A stretch of 64,000 nt of DNA from a bacterium (GTDB lineage Bacteria > Hinthialibacterota > Hinthialibacteria > OLB16), in contig JAJVIK010000010.1 in assembly GCA_022072055.1 (NCBI GenBank), positions 186,001 to 250,000 on the forward strand, given 5' to 3'. Position numbers and translations under genes: made by a program. The notes beneath the pieces are model-generated. The model ran no database searches. It was not told the DNA's origin and saw only the letters and a list, made by a program, of their open reading frames with translations. This document shows, in pieces, positions 24,531 to 33,269 of the stretch (position 1 is the stretch's first letter; every line of letters starts with the position of its first letter).

Positions 24531-26279
24531 TCACCACACTCGAACATCCGGCATGCGGACCAGGACCTCCGCGCGCAAGTTTTCCTCGGCCCAATCCCGA
24601 AGCGCGGCTTGGGATGGAAGCGCCGGAGCCTTCACCGTCAGGTCCCCCTCAAGCAGCCGCTGGATGAAGGACTTGGGTTTGGGGTAGACCCTGAGGGGAT
24701 AGTCCTTGTCCGGATCGAGACCCGCCTTTTCCTTGGCCAGTACGAGCGCCTCATCGAATCCCCCGATTCGATCAACCAAGCCCCGGTCCAAGGCATCCCG
24801 ACCGCTCCAGATGCGCCCGCGCGCCACGGTCTCGATCTCCTCCGGTGTTCGACCACGACCATCGGCGACCTTGGTCTTGAAGGAATCATAGAGCGTTCCC
24901 ATCACCCCCTCGACCAATTTCCTCCGTTCCGGATCAAGAGGCGCGGTCCCAAAAAGGTCCGCCAAGGGCGCGGTTGTGATTTTGTCCACATTCATCCCGA
25001 TCCAATCCATGAATCCGTTCATGTTGAACTTGGTGAAAACCACTCCGATTGAGCCGGTGATCGTGGTGGTCGCGGCCACAATCGCGTCGGCGTCCATGGA
25101 AATCCAGTAGCCCCCCGATCCCGCCACGGAGGACATGGAAACCACCACGGGCTTTCCCTTGTCCCGCGCGCGACGGATTTCACGCCGGATAACATCGGAC
25201 CCGACCGCGGACCCCCCCGGGCTGTTCACCCGGAAGATAATCGCCTTGACCTTCTTGTCCTCCGCGGCCTTGCGAATGTGGCCGGCCAGTTCCGGACCGA
25301 CGATCATCTGACCCATCCCGAAGAACTCGCCTTCCCCAAGGGACAGGATCGGGCCCTCTCCAAACACGACCGCGATGGTTTCGCTCGCGCCGCGCGGGCC
25401 TTTCTTGAGGGACCTCAGGTATTTCGACAGCGTGATCCCTTCGTACTCCTTGGCACCTGAAACCTCACGGAGCGCCTCGTTCACCTCATCCACATATCCG
25501 AGCCGATCAACCAAGCCCGCGTCCTTGAATTCCCTGGCCGAGGCCATGCCGCGCGCGAGGAAGGCGGCAAGGCTTTCCGGCGTGACTCCGGCCCGCCGCT
25601 CGGAGACCCGTCCCTTGAAGCGCAGGTCGATGTCCTCCAGCACCGCCGTGAGCGCCTCGCGCATGTGCGGGCTCATCTCCCGGTTGGCGAAGGGCTCCCC
25701 CGCGCTCTTGTATTCCTTGAACATGATGACTTCCGGCTCGATGCCCAGCTTTTCAAGGCTGCCGCGCCAGAAGCTCACCTCGGCCGCGAGGCCGTTGACC
25801 AGGGTGAATGCATCCGGGGTGATCCAGAGCGGGTCTCCGCCGGTTCCCACAAAGTAGTCCAGGTCCTCGACCATATCCGCTGGAAAGAGGGTATGGACCG
25901 GTTTGCCGGAGGAGCGAAAACGGTCGAACTCGGCCAAGATCTCCTCGGCGGCGCCCCAGCCGGTAGCAAGCGGCTCCACTGTCAGTCGAATCCCGGAGAT
26001 GTTCCGGTCCTCCGCCGCCGCGCGAAGTCCGCGACGCAAATCCCAGAGTGAAGTCCGAGAGTCCCCGGAAAGCTCCGAAAGAAGATCATCCTTGGGGCCC
26101 TCCGAAAGACCTCCAGATAGCCTGACCTCCAGAATCGAACCTGGCTTCACCTCCACTCCTCCGCCAAAGAGTGACAGCAGGGCGAATAGGCTGCCCCCGA
26201 ATACGAGGGCGACGATGACAAGAAGCACAATCAGGTTTCGGAGCCGGCGCCGCTTGGGTCGTGGTTTATCTTCAGACAT
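24531..26279 (-). CDS. sppA: signal peptide peptidase SppA, 67K type
   Basis: 582 residues with one N-terminal membrane span (LIVLLVIVALVFGGSLFALLSLF) and two tandem S49 domains, the long form. The catalytic dyad appears intact: Lys191 in FKEYKSAGEPF and Ser388 in AGSGGYW. It degrades cleaved signal peptides at the periplasmic face. Start supported by GGGAGG 9 nt upstream. It is divergent from the AI-2E-type permease and convergent with ypdA. Confidence 0.92.
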   Translation of the reverse strand: MSEDKPRPKRRRLRNLIVLLVIVALVFGGSLFALLSLFGGGVEVKPGSILEVRLSGGLSEGPKDDLLSELSGDSRTSLWDLRRGLRAAAEDRNISGIRLTVEPLATGWGAAEEILAEFDRFRSSGKPVHTLFPADMVEDLDYFVGTGGDPLWITPDAFTLVNGLAAEVSFWRGSLEKLGIEPEVIMFKEYKSAGEPFANREMSPHMREALTAVLEDIDLRFKGRVSERRAGVTPESLAAFLARGMASAREFKDAGLVDRLGYVDEVNEALREVSGAKEYEGITLSKYLRSLKKGPRGASETIAVVFGEGPILSLGEGEFFGMGQMIVGPELAGHIRKAAEDKKVKAIIFRVNSPGGSAVGSDVIRREIRRARDKGKPVVVSMSSVAGSGGYWISMDADAIVAATTTITGSIGVVFTKFNMNGFMDWIGMNVDKITTAPLADLFGTAPLDPERRKLVEGVMGTLYDSFKTKVADGRGRTPEEIETVARGRIWSGRDALDRGLVDRIGGFDEALVLAKEKAGLDPDKDYPLRVYPKPKSFIQRLLEGDLTVKAPALPSQAALRDWAEENLRAEVLVRMPDVRVW

Positions 26280-26416
26280 GGTGGAAATCCTCCCAGGCCA
26301 TAGCGAGACAACGTCTATTCCTATATTCTACTCCTCCGCAAGAGGCGAAGATAATCCCATTCCAGGCCCACCGAGGGCCGCGGAGAGCTCGACTGTGAAC
26401 GAGGGGAGGATGGCGG

Positions 26417-28054
26417 ATGCGAATTGAGATTGATTTCGGCTCCTCCAGCGGGAATCTCCGCCGCGCGGTTTTGGTCACGCTCCCGGTGGTTGCGATCGCC
26501 GCGTGCTTGTGGTTCTTCGGGGGCCCGATCCTGGAAACCTGCTCCCCGTTCGCGTTGGCGTTTGTTCTCGCTTACCTCCTGAGTCCGGTGGTGGACTGGA
26601 TCGCCGGGGAGAGGCGCGGGCGGCTTCGAATCCATCGCGCCCTGGCGATTCTACTCCTCTACCTGGGCGTGGGACTCTCCATCCCCATGGTGCTCGCGGC
26701 GATTCTTCCGAGAATCTTCGCCGAGGGCGCCGAATTCGGAAGAAAGGTCTCCCGTGATTATCTCCCCGCGTTAGGCGCTGAGTTGCGCCCACGTCTCGAG
26801 TACTGGTTCTCCGCAAAATCGCTTCTGGAAAACGGAGACTTCACCGAGTGGAACGAGGGCCTTCCCATCGATTGGGAGGCCTCTGAGGACGCGAGATGTT
26901 TCCCCCTGGATGAGGATCCCCCCTCGGGACTTCGAGTTTCCCCCGCGGTCGAGGAGCAGGCTTGGGTGCTGAGTCAGAACCTCGCGGAGCTCCCCTCGGA
27001 TTCCACTTTCACGCTCGCCGTGGTGGTCCGCGAGGCCACGTCCGAGGTGCATGGCTGGACAGTCGCGCTCACCAGTGATCAATCCGCGGCGACGTCCTTT
27101 GCGTGGCGGTCTCCGATTCCCCCGGCGGGAGGGCTTCGCGAGAGCGTGTACATCCCGGCGGAAGTGGAGCGCGCGTTGTTCTCCCTGGAGGCGGAGCCTG
27201 GAGCGGGCGAGATTCGGCTCGAATCGGTGGCGCTGCTTCAGCCCCCACCGCTCCCCTTTTTCCAGCCCGGGTACTGGACTGGCGTGTACGAAGAGTACCG
27301 CCACCTCCTGACATGGTCGAACTTGTCCACGGTGTTCACTTACGGCGCCAAAGGCGCGGGGATGGTGGCGGGGGGCGCGGGCGGGGCCTGGGCATGGCTT
27401 TCCGCGCGCGTGGGCGGCTTGGTTTCGCTCGCCGTGTATGTGGCGCTTCTCTGCGTAATCCTGTTTTACATGCTTCTTGATTTCACGGCCTTCAAGCAGG
27501 GATGTTTGGAGGTCATTCCCGAAAAGTGGAGACCTCGGGCGGTCGGTTTCGCAAGCGAACTGGATCGTCAGCTGGGGGGCTTCATTCGTGGGCAGGCGAT
27601 GGTGTGCCTCTCGGTGGGGCTGATGGTGACTTTCTTCCTGCTCATCCTGCGCGTGCCGTTCGCGATCCCAATCGGGATCGCCGCAGGGTGCTTCAACTTC
27701 ATCCCGTACCTCGGCCCGGCGATGGGGATGATTCCCGCAGTCACGCTCACTCTGCTTGAGTTCTTCGATCCCGAGACAACGGCCAACTGGGTGTTGGTCA
27801 AACTTCTCCTGGTGCTGGGGAGTTTCATGGTGGTGCAAGCCGCCGACGGGCTTCTTATCAGCCCCAAGGTCATGGCCAAAACCGTTGATGTTTCCCCGCT
27901 GGTGGTGATGGCGGCGCTGATGCTCGGGGGAGGGATCGCGGGAGTAACCGGGATGGTGCTGGCGATTCCGATGTACTGTTTGTTGCGGGTGCTGGTGGGG
28001 GAGTATCGCAGGGAGATCCGGGATGAAGCCGGTAGCGCGGGGCCTGAATCGTAG
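26417..28054 (+). CDS. AI-2E/PerM-family transporter with inserted galactose-binding-like domain
   Basis: 545 residues, about 190 longer than typical members. Residues 1-125 carry the first membrane helices (CSPFALAFVLAYLLSPVVDW). The C-terminal part from about 320 has the conserved PerM core, including PFAIPIGIAAGCFNFIPYLG and QAADGLLISPKVM. Between them, residues 133-278 begin SLLENGDFTEWNEGLPIDWE, the hallmark opening of CBM4/9-like jelly-roll modules, and continue as short strands. The insert falls in the first large extracytoplasmic region. The family exports small molecules (AI-2 in one case, Na+/H+ exchange in others); the insert suggests glycan or ligand binding outside. Confidence 0.8.
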   Translation: MRIEIDFGSSSGNLRRAVLVTLPVVAIAACLWFFGGPILETCSPFALAFVLAYLLSPVVDWIAGERRGRLRIHRALAILLLYLGVGLSIPMVLAAILPRIFAEGAEFGRKVSRDYLPALGAELRPRLEYWFSAKSLLENGDFTEWNEGLPIDWEASEDARCFPLDEDPPSGLRVSPAVEEQAWVLSQNLAELPSDSTFTLAVVVREATSEVHGWTVALTSDQSAATSFAWRSPIPPAGGLRESVYIPAEVERALFSLEAEPGAGEIRLESVALLQPPPLPFFQPGYWTGVYEEYRHLLTWSNLSTVFTYGAKGAGMVAGGAGGAWAWLSARVGGLVSLAVYVALLCVILFYMLLDFTAFKQGCLEVIPEKWRPRAVGFASELDRQLGGFIRGQAMVCLSVGLMVTFFLLILRVPFAIPIGIAAGCFNFIPYLGPAMGMIPAVTLTLLEFFDPETTANWVLVKLLLVLGSFMVVQAADGLLISPKVMAKTVDVSPLVVMAALMLGGGIAGVTGMVLAIPMYCLLRVLVGEYRREIRDEAGSAGPES

Positions 28055-28071
28055 CCGCGGCAACCGACCAA

Positions 28072-28130
28072 GCAAAACACAAACAGGGCGGACTCGCGGG
28101 CCGAGCTTCCGGCCAGGCGAAACCGCCCTG
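28072..28130 (-). terminator. terminator downstream of rpmB
   Basis: On the minus strand CAGGGCGG pairs with CCGCCCTG across a loop that itself holds a GGCC/GGCC helix, followed by TTTGTGTTTT. It lies 28 bp after the rpmB stop codon and may also act against readthrough from the convergent permease gene. Confidence 0.75.
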
Positions 28131-28157
28131 TCCCCCTAAATCCGTTTCAGAGAAACG

Positions 28158-28367
28158 TCAAACGTCGAGATTCAGATTCTTGGTCTTGCCCCGAGTGAGC
28201 GAACGCAGAGCCCGCGTGCTGACGAGCACGCGCACCTTCTTGCCGTTGATCATCACTCGCTTCTTCTGAAGGTTCGGCTTAAACCGCCGACTTGTCACAT
28301 TGTGAGCGTGACTGACATCCCGTCCCGCCACGACTTTCTTTCCGGTCAGAGCGCAAACTCTCGGCAT
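28158..28367 (-). CDS. rpmB: 50S ribosomal protein L28
   Basis: 69 residues beginning MPRVCALTGKKVVAGRDVSHAHN, the standard L28 N-terminus, and ending with TRALRSLTRGKTKNLNL. Only one Cys is present, so this is the zinc-free form. The start at 28367 has GAGGAG 4 nt upstream; the longer track ORF has no support. It is monocistronic, with its own terminator, and divergent from nrdR. Confidence 0.95.
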   Translation of the reverse strand: MPRVCALTGKKVVAGRDVSHAHNVTSRRFKPNLQKKRVMINGKKVRVLVSTRALRSLTRGKTKNLNLDV

Positions 28368-28452
28368 GATACTCCTCAAACTCCTCAAAGTCGCTAGAAT
28401 CCATGAGACTATACCGAGGGAAGGCCCCCTGTTCAAGGCCTGTTGACCATCC

Positions 28453-28959
28453 ATGCGCTGTCCTTACTGCTCCGCCGACAATGACCACGTGATCGATTCC
28501 CGCTCGATGCCGGATGGTTCCGCGATTCGACGCCGCCGGGAATGCCTGGCCTGCCACCGTCGCTTCACCACCTATGAGCATGTCGATGAGATCGCGTTGA
28601 TGATCATCAAGAAGGACGGACGGCGCGAGCCTTACAATCGAGAGAAGATCGCGGCCGGAATCCGCACCGCGTGCCAGAAACGACCTATCAGCGAGGACAA
28701 GATCCAGGAGGTGACCGGGTCCATTGAGCAGTGGGTTTTCAGCCAGCCGGAGAAGGAGGTGGAGAGCCACAAGGTCGGGGAGCTGGTGATGGAGACCTTG
28801 CGACACCTCGACCAAGTGGCCTATGTCCGCTTCGCCTCGGTTTACCGTTCGTTCAAGGATGTGAACGAGTTCATGTCCGAGCTCTCACGCCTCTTGGAGC
28901 ATCCCCAACGGATCCGGAAAGAGGTCAAGGGGCGAAGGGGGACACGGGGCCGGAAGTGA
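28453..28959 (+). CDS. nrdR: transcriptional repressor NrdR
   Basis: 168 residues. The N-terminal zinc ribbon has Cys3, Cys6, Cys31 and Cys34, followed by an ATP-cone (VIKKDGRREPYNREK-like stretch) that senses ATP/dATP. NrdR binds NrdR boxes to repress ribonucleotide reductase genes, none of which are in this window. The usual family length is about 150-170 residues. It is separated by 85 bp from divergent rpmB. Confidence 0.95.
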   Translation: MRCPYCSADNDHVIDSRSMPDGSAIRRRRECLACHRRFTTYEHVDEIALMIIKKDGRREPYNREKIAAGIRTACQKRPISEDKIQEVTGSIEQWVFSQPEKEVESHKVGELVMETLRHLDQVAYVRFASVYRSFKDVNEFMSELSRLLEHPQRIRKEVKGRRGTRGRK

Positions 28960-29040
28960 TTCCGCGGGGCGCTCATTCGGGTTCACCGTCCGATGCCGCA
29001 TGGGCTGCGGCGCGCAGCGCCCCACGATGGGACAGCCACG

Positions 29041-30666
29041 ATGGAGCATCTCTGGATCAAGGACCTTCTGGTCATTCTACTCGCGGGCTTCGCGGCCGGG
29101 GCGATCTGCAAACGGCTCGGCGTGTCGCTGCTTGTAGGATATCTGGTGGTCGGGGCGCTGATCGGACCGGGCGCGCTCGGTTGGGTCCACGATGATTCCA
29201 ATCAGATCGAATCCTTCGCGACCGTGGGGGTCCTGCTGCTGCTCTTTTCGGTGGGACTTGAGTTCACGCTTGAGGACTTCGGTAAAATCCTGCGCCCACT
29301 CCTTGTGGGCGGAAGTGTTTTCACGGTCGGGTGCGCGATTCCGGCTTACGCGACCCTGAGGTGGCTTGGGCTTCCCTCAAGCGCGGCGCTGCTTCTCGCG
29401 GTGGCGTTTTCGTTCAGTTCCACCGTCCTGGTCTACAAAGCGCTCGCGGAGTGGGGACAGGTGGCGACTCCGCATGGCACCCGCGCGATGGGAATTGTGG
29501 TTTTTCAGGACATCGCCATGGTCCCCTTCCTGCTCTTCATCCCCCTGCTCGCCGGCGCCGGGGATGCTCCCGCCGCGATGGCGCTTCTCAAACTGCTCGT
29601 CACCTCGGCGGTCCTCGTGCTCTCCGTGTTCGGGCTGCGCTGGACAGTCGGGCGATGGCTGGTGGGAATGCTTGTGGACTTCAAGAGCCCTGAGTTGGTG
29701 GTCCTTTTCACCCTGGTCGTGATCGCCGGGACCGCGTTTGTATCCCACCTCTTGGGGCTGCCGCCCCCATTGGGGGCTTTCCTCGCCGGGATGGTGCTGA
29801 GCGGCAACCGGCTCACGAGCCAGATTGACGCCCTCGCGCTTCCCTTTCGGGAGTCCTTTTCGGCGGTGTTCTTCATCAGCCTTGGATTGCTGCTCGACCC
29901 GGGAATCTACATCAGGGAATGGAGGGGGCTGCTGCCGTTGCTCATCGCCACGCTGGCGCTCAAAACCCTTGTCGGGGCGGCCTCGATGCGAGTCACCGGG
30001 GTTTCTTGGAAGGCCGGATTGGGAATGGGTCTCGGGATATCTCAGCTTGGCGAGTTCTCCTTTGTCCTGGCGCTGGAGGGTGTCCGTTCGGGGATTCTGT
30101 CCGCCGACGCCTATGGGTGGTTCCTGGCCGTGGCCATCGGCAGCCTGGTGGTCACCCCTCAACTCCTCAAGGTGGGATTGGGTTGGACCGCCCTGTCGAA
30201 GGAGAAGGACCGTGAGGGACATGTCCCGGTCCGAACGCTGCCTCCGGACATCCATGACGCGGTGGTGATCGGGGTCGGTCCGATTGGCCGCAAGGTCTTC
30301 TCGAAGCTCGAGGTGGATGGGTTCGACATGGCCCTGATCGACATGAGCCCGGTTAACCTTCACCCCTTCGCGCAACAGGGATTCCGGACCATCGCGGGCG
30401 ACGCTCGCAATGAGGAAATTCTCCGTCGCGCGGAGGTGAATGAATGCGAGCTGATCGTGGTTTGCGTGCCGGATGACCCAATCGCGATTCAGGTGATCAA
30501 GGCGGTTCGGTTGCTCAACCCCAAGGCCCCGATTCTCGCGCGCTGCCGCTACATGGGAAACGCCAATCTCCTGCGCGCCGCGGGCGCGACCGAGGTGGTG
30601 GTGGACGAACGCGAGACCACCACCGCGATAATCCGCGCGCTCTCTCGGGTGGAGGAGCCGGATTAG
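29041..30666 (+). CDS. monovalent cation:proton antiporter-2 (Kef/YbaL type) with TrkA-N domain
   Basis: About 541 residues. Around twelve hydrophobic segments form the CPA2 antiporter domain (residues 1-390), including LFSVGLEFTLEDF and FLAGMVLSGNRLT. A cytoplasmic TrkA-N/RCK domain follows, with nucleotide-binding GVGPIGRKVFSKLE near residue 410. No TrkA-C domain is visible. Probably a K+ or Na+/H+ antiporter gated by nucleotides. The start at 29041 is the first Met adjoining the membrane domain; its Shine-Dalgarno sequence is weak, and an upstream in-frame ATG at 28993 cannot be excluded. Confidence 0.88.
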   Translation: MEHLWIKDLLVILLAGFAAGAICKRLGVSLLVGYLVVGALIGPGALGWVHDDSNQIESFATVGVLLLLFSVGLEFTLEDFGKILRPLLVGGSVFTVGCAIPAYATLRWLGLPSSAALLLAVAFSFSSTVLVYKALAEWGQVATPHGTRAMGIVVFQDIAMVPFLLFIPLLAGAGDAPAAMALLKLLVTSAVLVLSVFGLRWTVGRWLVGMLVDFKSPELVVLFTLVVIAGTAFVSHLLGLPPPLGAFLAGMVLSGNRLTSQIDALALPFRESFSAVFFISLGLLLDPGIYIREWRGLLPLLIATLALKTLVGAASMRVTGVSWKAGLGMGLGISQLGEFSFVLALEGVRSGILSADAYGWFLAVAIGSLVVTPQLLKVGLGWTALSKEKDREGHVPVRTLPPDIHDAVVIGVGPIGRKVFSKLEVDGFDMALIDMSPVNLHPFAQQGFRTIAGDARNEEILRRAEVNECELIVVCVPDDPIAIQVIKAVRLLNPKAPILARCRYMGNANLLRAAGATEVVVDERETTTAIIRALSRVEEPD

Positions 30667-30689
30667 GGGAAACTCGGTTGTGTGATAAC

Positions 30690-33269
30690 ATGCGATCCAT
30701 GAAAAACCTCTTGCCCGCATATGGGCGTTTGTTGGCCCTCTGCCTCGCGGTCACTGCCGCTTTGGGCCAGGAAGCCCCGCGTCTGCTCCCCGACCGAGGA
30801 CTGGCCGGAATCCGGCAGCAGCTGCTCGAGATTGGGACGGACTTGCGCCTGATGTGCGTGGCTGCCCACCCGGATGACGAGGACAGCGAGACTTTGGCCT
30901 ACTACAACCGTGGGCGCGGGGTCCGAACCTCCATTGTGTTGGCGAATTGGGGGGAAGGGGGACAGAACGAGATAGGGTCGGAGCTCTACGAGGAGCTCGG
31001 GGCAATTCGCGCGAGGGAAACTCTAGCCGCGGCTGAACTCCTGGGCACTCGGGTCTACTGTCTGAACCAGAAGGACTTCGGATACTCCAAGACCATCGAG
31101 GAGACCTGGCGGTTCTGGCGGCGGGAGGTAGCGCTGGAGAGGCTGGTTCGTGTCCTCCGCACGGAGCGCCCCCATGTGGTCATCACCAATCACCGGGTGG
31201 GATCGGGGCATGGCAACCACCAAGCGATGGCGGAGCTCATCGCCGAGGCGATTCCACTTGCGGCCTCTCCCGAGGCCTACACCGCCCAGCTTGTGGAGGA
31301 GGGGCTTGTCCCCTGGCGAGTGGAGCGTTTTTTCCAGCAGGCGCGCCACCATGAGGGCCTGCCTGGGGAGGATTACGATGTTGCCATCCGGGTCGCGGAT
31401 CCGGACCCGATTCGCGGACTCACTTTCCAGGAAATTGCCGCCGAGGCGCTTAACCGGCACCGCTCACAAGGCATCAAAGGGGTCTGGGGCCGGGTCAACG
31501 CCGCGCGCGAACAATCCCCGGTGAATGCTTTCCGATTGGTCGTGGGAGATCGGCCTGAGGGGAAGCTGCGGGACCTTTTTGAGGGGATGGCTGGGGCTTG
31601 GTGGCTGGATGGAAGCGCTACACCCTTCAAGGACTTAGGGCCTGCTGAGGCTGCAACGGCGTCTGAGCGGCAATTCAACGCGGCTCTCCGGCGCGCGCTG
31701 TCAAACCTGCTCGTGGACCGCTTGAAGGTGGAAGCGAGTGTCTCCGAGGCCATCGCCTCGCTCTCCGCGCGGGCCGTTGAAGTGGATTCCGCCACCGAGT
31801 GGGAACGGTTCCCTCCGGAAGCGGTCCTCGGTGAGAAAGAGTTCTGGTCGGCGGAAGACATGGAGCGATACCAGCGCCAGGTCTTGGAGACCCTGGAATC
31901 GATCGGCGACAAGCAACGTCGATTGGAGCGAATCCTTGGTGACCTGTGGGTCATTCGCTTGGAGATTCGGAACGAGGGGAAGTCCCCCACGCCGGGTGAG
32001 GTGTCCGAGGTCATTCTGGAGGTTTCGAATCGAGGGGAGATCGATGTTGAGATTGAATCCCTACGCCTTGAAGCCCCGGTGGGGTGGACCGTGGAAGGGA
32101 TCCGAGAAGAAGGGGCGGCGGACGCGCGGGCGACCCTCGCGCCGGGCGAGAAACACACTCGGCGCTTCCATGTCGGGGTGGCGCCCGAAGAGCCGCCCAC
32201 TCTTCCAGCCGCCGAGTCGCTTTACCGGGCGCTCCGACCTTGGCCATCCAACCTCAGAGGCTTGGTCTTGCTCAAGCGAGCAGACCGATACGGCCGAGTC
32301 GAGGGCGAATATCGTTTGGAGATCGAGCCGGCCTGGGAGCTTCGTTTCCATCCGGCCGCGCCGCTCTTGCGCGCGGACCGAGTCGCGGAGACCTCACTCT
32401 CCCTGGAGGTGGTGAGACATGCTCGGGAGCCGAAAGACGCCACGGTTGCCGTGACTTTTCCGGATGGCCAAAGGCAAACCCTTCGTCTTTCCGGGAGTGA
32501 GATGCTTCAGGAGGCAGTCCCACTTGAATGGAAGCCCTCATCCTCCCTTGGGGTGGGAAAGCATTCGCTTGTGGCCACCCTGCTCGCGCCGGACGCGAGG
32601 ATTGAATCCCGCGAAACCCTCGCGTTCGTCGATGTGGCTGTTCCTCCAGATTTGGTGGTGGGGATTATCCGGTCCTATGACACCACTCTCCCGGATGCCC
32701 TCTCGAAACTCGGGATCCCTCACGCCCTGATATCGGACGAAGATCTGGAAAGCGGAGACCTCACACGGTTCGGGACCATCCTGGTGGACATCCGAGGGTA
32801 CTTGGAGCGACCCGCGCTGGCCAAGGCCAACAAGCGCCTGCTGGCCTTCGCGGAACAAGGGGGGCATCTGGTGGTCTTCTATCACAAGACCTTCGAATGG
32901 AATGACGCGGACCCGCCGTACGCTCCCTATCCGCTCCTGCTCTCAGGAGGACGAGTCACCGAGGAGGACGCTCCGGTCACGGTCCTCGCCCCGGGACACA
33001 GGTTCTTCCATTTCCCCAACGAGATCCGCGCGGATGACTGGGATGGATGGATTCAGGAGCGCGGACTCTATTTCCCCGACCGCTACTCTTCCGAATACAC
33101 GGAGCTCGTGGCCCTTGGGGACAGCGGCTCGGAGCCGCTCAAGGGGGGAATTCTTTGGGCGAAGGCCGGCAAGGGGAGCTATGTTTACACTTCTCTGGCG
33201 TGGTATCGCCAGCTTCGCGGCCTGGTCCCTGGGGCTTATCGGCTCTTTGCCAACCTGATCACGCCCTAG
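30690..33269 (+). CDS. secreted PIG-L family deacetylase with C-terminal amidotransferase-like domain
   Basis: About 859 residues with a signal peptide (MKNLLPAYGRLLALCLAVTAALGQ). The N-terminal third is a PIG-L/LmbE zinc deacetylase domain with AHPDDED and the distal HGNHQAM metal motif. The middle, around residues 400-650, holds beta-sandwich segments typical of NPCBM/CARDB-like modules. The last 200 residues (VVGIIRSYDTTLPDALSKLGI and GGHLVVFYHKTFEW) look like a GATase1-like fold without an obvious catalytic Cys. It probably deacetylates N-acetyl sugars outside the cytoplasm. The start could be 30690 or 30699. Confidence 0.82.
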   Translation: MRSMKNLLPAYGRLLALCLAVTAALGQEAPRLLPDRGLAGIRQQLLEIGTDLRLMCVAAHPDDEDSETLAYYNRGRGVRTSIVLANWGEGGQNEIGSELYEELGAIRARETLAAAELLGTRVYCLNQKDFGYSKTIEETWRFWRREVALERLVRVLRTERPHVVITNHRVGSGHGNHQAMAELIAEAIPLAASPEAYTAQLVEEGLVPWRVERFFQQARHHEGLPGEDYDVAIRVADPDPIRGLTFQEIAAEALNRHRSQGIKGVWGRVNAAREQSPVNAFRLVVGDRPEGKLRDLFEGMAGAWWLDGSATPFKDLGPAEAATASERQFNAALRRALSNLLVDRLKVEASVSEAIASLSARAVEVDSATEWERFPPEAVLGEKEFWSAEDMERYQRQVLETLESIGDKQRRLERILGDLWVIRLEIRNEGKSPTPGEVSEVILEVSNRGEIDVEIESLRLEAPVGWTVEGIREEGAADARATLAPGEKHTRRFHVGVAPEEPPTLPAAESLYRALRPWPSNLRGLVLLKRADRYGRVEGEYRLEIEPAWELRFHPAAPLLRADRVAETSLSLEVVRHAREPKDATVAVTFPDGQRQTLRLSGSEMLQEAVPLEWKPSSSLGVGKHSLVATLLAPDARIESRETLAFVDVAVPPDLVVGIIRSYDTTLPDALSKLGIPHALISDEDLESGDLTRFGTILVDIRGYLERPALAKANKRLLAFAEQGGHLVVFYHKTFEWNDADPPYAPYPLLLSGGRVTEEDAPVTVLAPGHRFFHFPNEIRADDWDGWIQERGLYFPDRYSSEYTELVALGDSGSEPLKGGILWAKAGKGSYVYTSLAWYRQLRGLVPGAYRLFANLITP

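Follow-up and report, generated by a model that had tools for sequence, protein, structure and literature searches.

Proteins of the AI-2E family are very widespread, and their activities are disputed among AI-2 export, Na+/H+ antiport and control of cell-wall synthesis. TqsA (YdgG), the AI-2 transport protein of E. coli (PDB 7nb6), is a pentamer of a 344-aa protein, which has a short loop between transmembrane helices 3 and 4 (TM3-TM4 loop) and no inserted domain. Studies have linked proteins of this family (PF01594, UPF0118) to AI-2 export (PMC9134010), to Na+/H+ antiport (PMC7221264) and to cell-wall synthesis, the latter for CozE (PMC7593971) and yfgO (PMC9876793). The UPF0118 Na+(Li+)/H+ antiporter of Halobacillus andaensis has 6-8 predicted TM helices, and its N-terminus was placed in the cytoplasm by PhoA fusion (PMC7221264). 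CozEa and CozEb of Streptococcus pneumoniae belong to the same Pfam family, and a large extracellular loop with alpha-helices is predicted between TM3 and TM4, which in CozEb was suggested to serve protein-protein interaction (PMC7593971). In this study, we describe a PF01594 protein that, unlike TqsA, has a large soluble domain in the middle of the TM3-TM4 loop; an inserted domain is not described for the antiporter, nor a soluble insert of ~150 residues for CozEa/CozEb.

The gene lies at 26417..28054 on the plus strand of the window, the whole 64,000-nucleotide stretch of DNA that was analysed, and encodes 545 aa. A Shine-Dalgarno-like purine stretch, gaggggagga (26401..26410, plus strand), can be read directly just 5' of the ATG at 26417. 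PF01594 is the only Pfam family in the protein (E 1.1e-49; 169.9 bits against a gathering cut-off of 34.3), which bears out the earlier note, made from the DNA alone, in calling it an AI-2E-type permease. The nearest solved structure in a PDB sequence search was E. coli TqsA (7nb6, E 8e-7), whose residues 158-325 align with core residues 349-527, and the TM1-3 region aligns weakly too. Both neighbours of the gene are on the minus strand, the divergent sppA (Peptidase S49) on one side and, convergent on the other, a gene for ribosomal protein L28 assigned from a reading of its ORF, so that the gene stands by itself and no operon partner is evident at this locus. Further along the window, 30678-33269 encodes a PIG-L deacetylase-like protein (PF02585) whose C-terminal part is long and includes, at residues 438-501, a sub-threshold stretch resembling the NPCBM-associated NEW3 domain.

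The layout of the protein has the traits of the family, that is, three hydrophobic segments before the loop, several after it, and a conserved C-terminal half. By hydropathy, the first three segments are residues 13-40 (26453..26536), about 44-64 (26546..26608) and 74-103 (26636..26725), with a basic and presumably cytoplasmic turn, GERRGRLRIHR, between the second and the third. The conserved AI-2E core covers residues 327-530 (27395..28006), with hydrophobic segments at 327-361, 389-427 and 454-528. In the genome search, the insert split the PF01594 match in two, the first piece covering profile positions 5-81 (33 bits) and the second, beyond the insert, profile positions 132-326 at residues 327-530. 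The loop itself could be resolved by alignment with an insert-free ortholog: its first part (residues 104-131, 26726..26809) and its last part (residues 280-326, 27254..27394) are present in both proteins, and residues ~132-279 (26810..27253) are the insert. The interval given in the earlier note, 26819-27251, was nearly right, the insert being slightly wider at both ends, and the motif noted at its start, LENGDFTEWNEGLPIDWE, was found at residues 137-154.

The insert is acidic, with 25 D/E against 8 K/R, and its Kyte-Doolittle mean over 19 residues peaks at 0.83; hydropathy thus shows no additional membrane helix in it, in agreement with the description of an inserted soluble domain. We infer that it forms a fold of its own, probably rich in beta structure. 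Because three hydrophobic segments precede it and the N-terminus is cytoplasmic in a family member (PMC7221264), the insert is predicted to be outside the cytoplasm. The predicted extracellular loop of CozEb (PMC7593971) supports the same side, as the earlier note had proposed, and by analogy with these relatives we hold the outer location to be strongly indicated.

The insert is shared with a sister genus. The ortholog in genome G001 (L004) is 49% identical overall and has a homologous insert in the same place; the two inserts alone match by BLASTP with E 3e-14 at 29% identity. Between the two proteins, the N part is 47% identical, the insert 27% and the C core 64%. The inserts share W17, W25, W55, W86, W102 and the motif ENG.FT.W (numbering of the insert alignment), and the positions kept are mostly structural in character. 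L005, the ortholog from G002, which represents a third genus of this family, is 46-55% identical in its two parts and passes from residue 131 directly to the counterpart of query residue 279, which makes it a clean natural empty site. In a tree of the cores, the two insert carriers are placed together (96/91), next to the G002 protein, within a clade of family f1 (100/100). Most simply, a globular domain of ~148 residues would have been gained once, in the ancestor of the two sister genera; less simply, G002 would have lost it once. In the 17 kb surrounding the G001 ortholog, none of the other window genes was found, so the neighbourhood is not conserved, and since the AI-2E gene is the only one common to the window and this 17 kb, retention of the insert is not due to a recently shared segment. 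Judged by these comparisons, the fusion has outlasted its gene neighbourhood and is an old domain gain that has been retained.

The same insert is rare. Among the 14 genomes of this phylum in our set, AI-2E proteins occur in 12 and the insert only in G000 and G001, and our literature search found no AI-2E protein with an inserted domain, in line with the view of the earlier note that this is no standard architecture. A profile built from the two inserts matched only the two source genomes among 386; four further matches were rejected as weak (E 5e-4 to 9e-3) and running through stop codons. No paralog of the insert was found in its own genome and no match to it in plasmid records, and the full-length pair had none in viral contigs. 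In the wider AI-2E sample of the 386 genomes, none of roughly the best 150 matches listed was interrupted (the profile match spans about 0.92-1.12 kb), which gives no rate of interruption, as only the best scores are included and interrupted proteins score lower. A 24,586-codon frame beside an AI-2E match in another genome (L144, G360:C1:145000-164000) proved to be an artefact of masked N. Within G005, an AI-2E frame of 581 residues (L006; L093:5093-6835, minus strand) begins with a stretch that resembles a type II secretion pilin (FITTYGRRPTSLEEM, DPWGEPY); this single open frame probably represents two genes or a fusion.

The fusion of insert and permease might arise from an error of annotation or assembly or from a frameshift, and the sequence is likely MAG-derived, but this explanation is hardly conceivable here. 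The frame is continuous, and GC3 is 0.75 in the insert against 0.76 and 0.78 in the flanks. The same DNA is present at 99.6% identity over 5.8 kb, with 22 differences, in a contig that was deposited separately (L037, JABWAU010000025.1); inside the AI-2E gene there are seven codon differences, of which only two change the amino acid, both conservatively, and one silent change falls within the insert. The homologous insert in the G001 ortholog already refutes an artefact. The separate contig matches window 25235-31051 and is titled Anaerolineales bacterium MAG_12, a title that is possibly misassigned or from a mixed bin; the phylum of the window has few genomes in the set. Alternatively, the insert might serve only to extend the loop, as a spacer that is for the most part non-specific or disordered and persists under weak constraint. 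It evolves fast, as the low identity of the insert beside that of the C core indicates, it contains 14 proline, 18 alanine and 18 glutamate among 148 residues, and both AlphaFold models, computed from the single sequence with no alignment, were of low confidence (mean pLDDT 43 for the full protein and 40 for the insert). However, low confidence from AlphaFold run in this way tells nothing, since the membrane core, which is certainly folded, also scored low, and the tryptophans and motifs conserved between genera, together with the BLASTP match of the inserts, point to a folded domain. We therefore regard a spacer as improbable.

The earlier note had proposed a CBM4/9-like jelly-roll, in which case the insert would bind carbohydrate as a galactose-binding-like domain and the protein would be a transporter tethered or gated by glycan. 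The insert is loosely similar to CBM_4_9 (PF02018) in length and motif order: compared by eye with CBM_4_9 domains fetched from related genomes, it has NGDF near the start, a W, GLRV and W..SQNL..L....TFTL, and its final GEIRLESVALLQ resembles the closing strand G.vyfDDvsL. Against a set of 22 CBM_4_9 domains, a local profile match, located in the middle part as expected, also beats ~98-99% of column shuffles. However, the profile comparisons fall short of significance. The hhalign score is very weak (probability 1.8%, E 0.027 for one comparison; equalled by 2/100 column shuffles, and by 4/300 with an extended template), whereas genuine CBM_4_9 singletons reach 45-99.8% in the same leave-one-out test; global alignment gave no signal, and hmmsearch scores were equalled by 38-87 of 1000 shuffles (4-9%). 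Searches of Pfam, NCBIfam and the PDB sequences, the domain search that the earlier note had suggested, returned no match for the insert, and in Pfam there was none for the window insert at E 1 or for the G001 insert even at E 10. The genome itself has no PF02018 match, and no binding residues can be named. The structure prediction that had also been suggested was run on the full protein and the insert, at a quality too poor to tell fold from disorder, and Foldseek on the insert model (pLDDT 40, no alignment) found no meaningful match. Neither of the outcomes that the earlier note had set against its reading was observed. The CBM4/9 identity is thus not supported; a carbohydrate-binding jelly-roll is a plausible guess and no more, and we consider it rather unlikely to be the right one.

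A second and larger insert was found in another family. In the unrelated genome G052, an AI-2E protein (L092:2265-4679) has ~350 extra residues at what is apparently the corresponding position. In the family of this genome (f44), AI-2E matches occur in 56 of 58 genomes, and nearly all of the proteins match the profile mainly in its C-terminal half, in frames mostly of 670-833 residues. Their alignment runs from hydrophobic segments through an extended hydrophilic region bearing Y.GT..G motifs to the core. The f44 proteins (L092, L124-L143) are thus like the window protein in that a PF01594 core is interrupted by a large soluble insert after the N-terminal segments, the two sites being apparently equivalent by the order of segments. 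The inserts themselves differ, that of f44 being ~350 aa long with propeller-like repeats. These Y.GT..G repeats are suggestive of propeller blades; the ~350-residue insert gave no match in Pfam or PDB sequence searches. Since a large insert of another kind is present here in nearly every f44 AI-2E protein, the site tolerates outer domains, and it seems that lineages have placed such large domains in the loop on more than one occasion.

We believe that the window protein is probably an AI-2E core whose TM3-TM4 loop carries, at its middle, a globular domain of ~148 residues outside the cytoplasm, and that this domain probably acts in recognition or tethering. The insert may dock the membrane core to an item of the envelope, such as glycan, peptidoglycan or a partner protein, a role modelled on the one proposed for CozEb, whose loop is much smaller. 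Should the window protein assemble into pentamers as TqsA does, five copies of the insert would crown the outer face. The ligand-sensing transporter suggested in the earlier note is a conjecture. Among the roles ascribed to the family, a domain holding an envelope glycan or a partner would fit cell-wall synthesis best. More tentatively, we speculate that the AI-2E TM3-TM4 loop could be a recurrent docking site, to which lineages have independently added large extracytoplasmic recognition domains, giving a ligand- or wall-sensing device; we would put this below an even chance.

For the family, close orthologs with and without the outer domain provide a clean natural handle on the function of AI-2E proteins. 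Should loops with different added domains turn up in one lineage after another, the TM3-TM4 loop would be the place to look for sensing or holding by these proteins, and the insert may point to the partner or ligand on which the AI-2E family acts.
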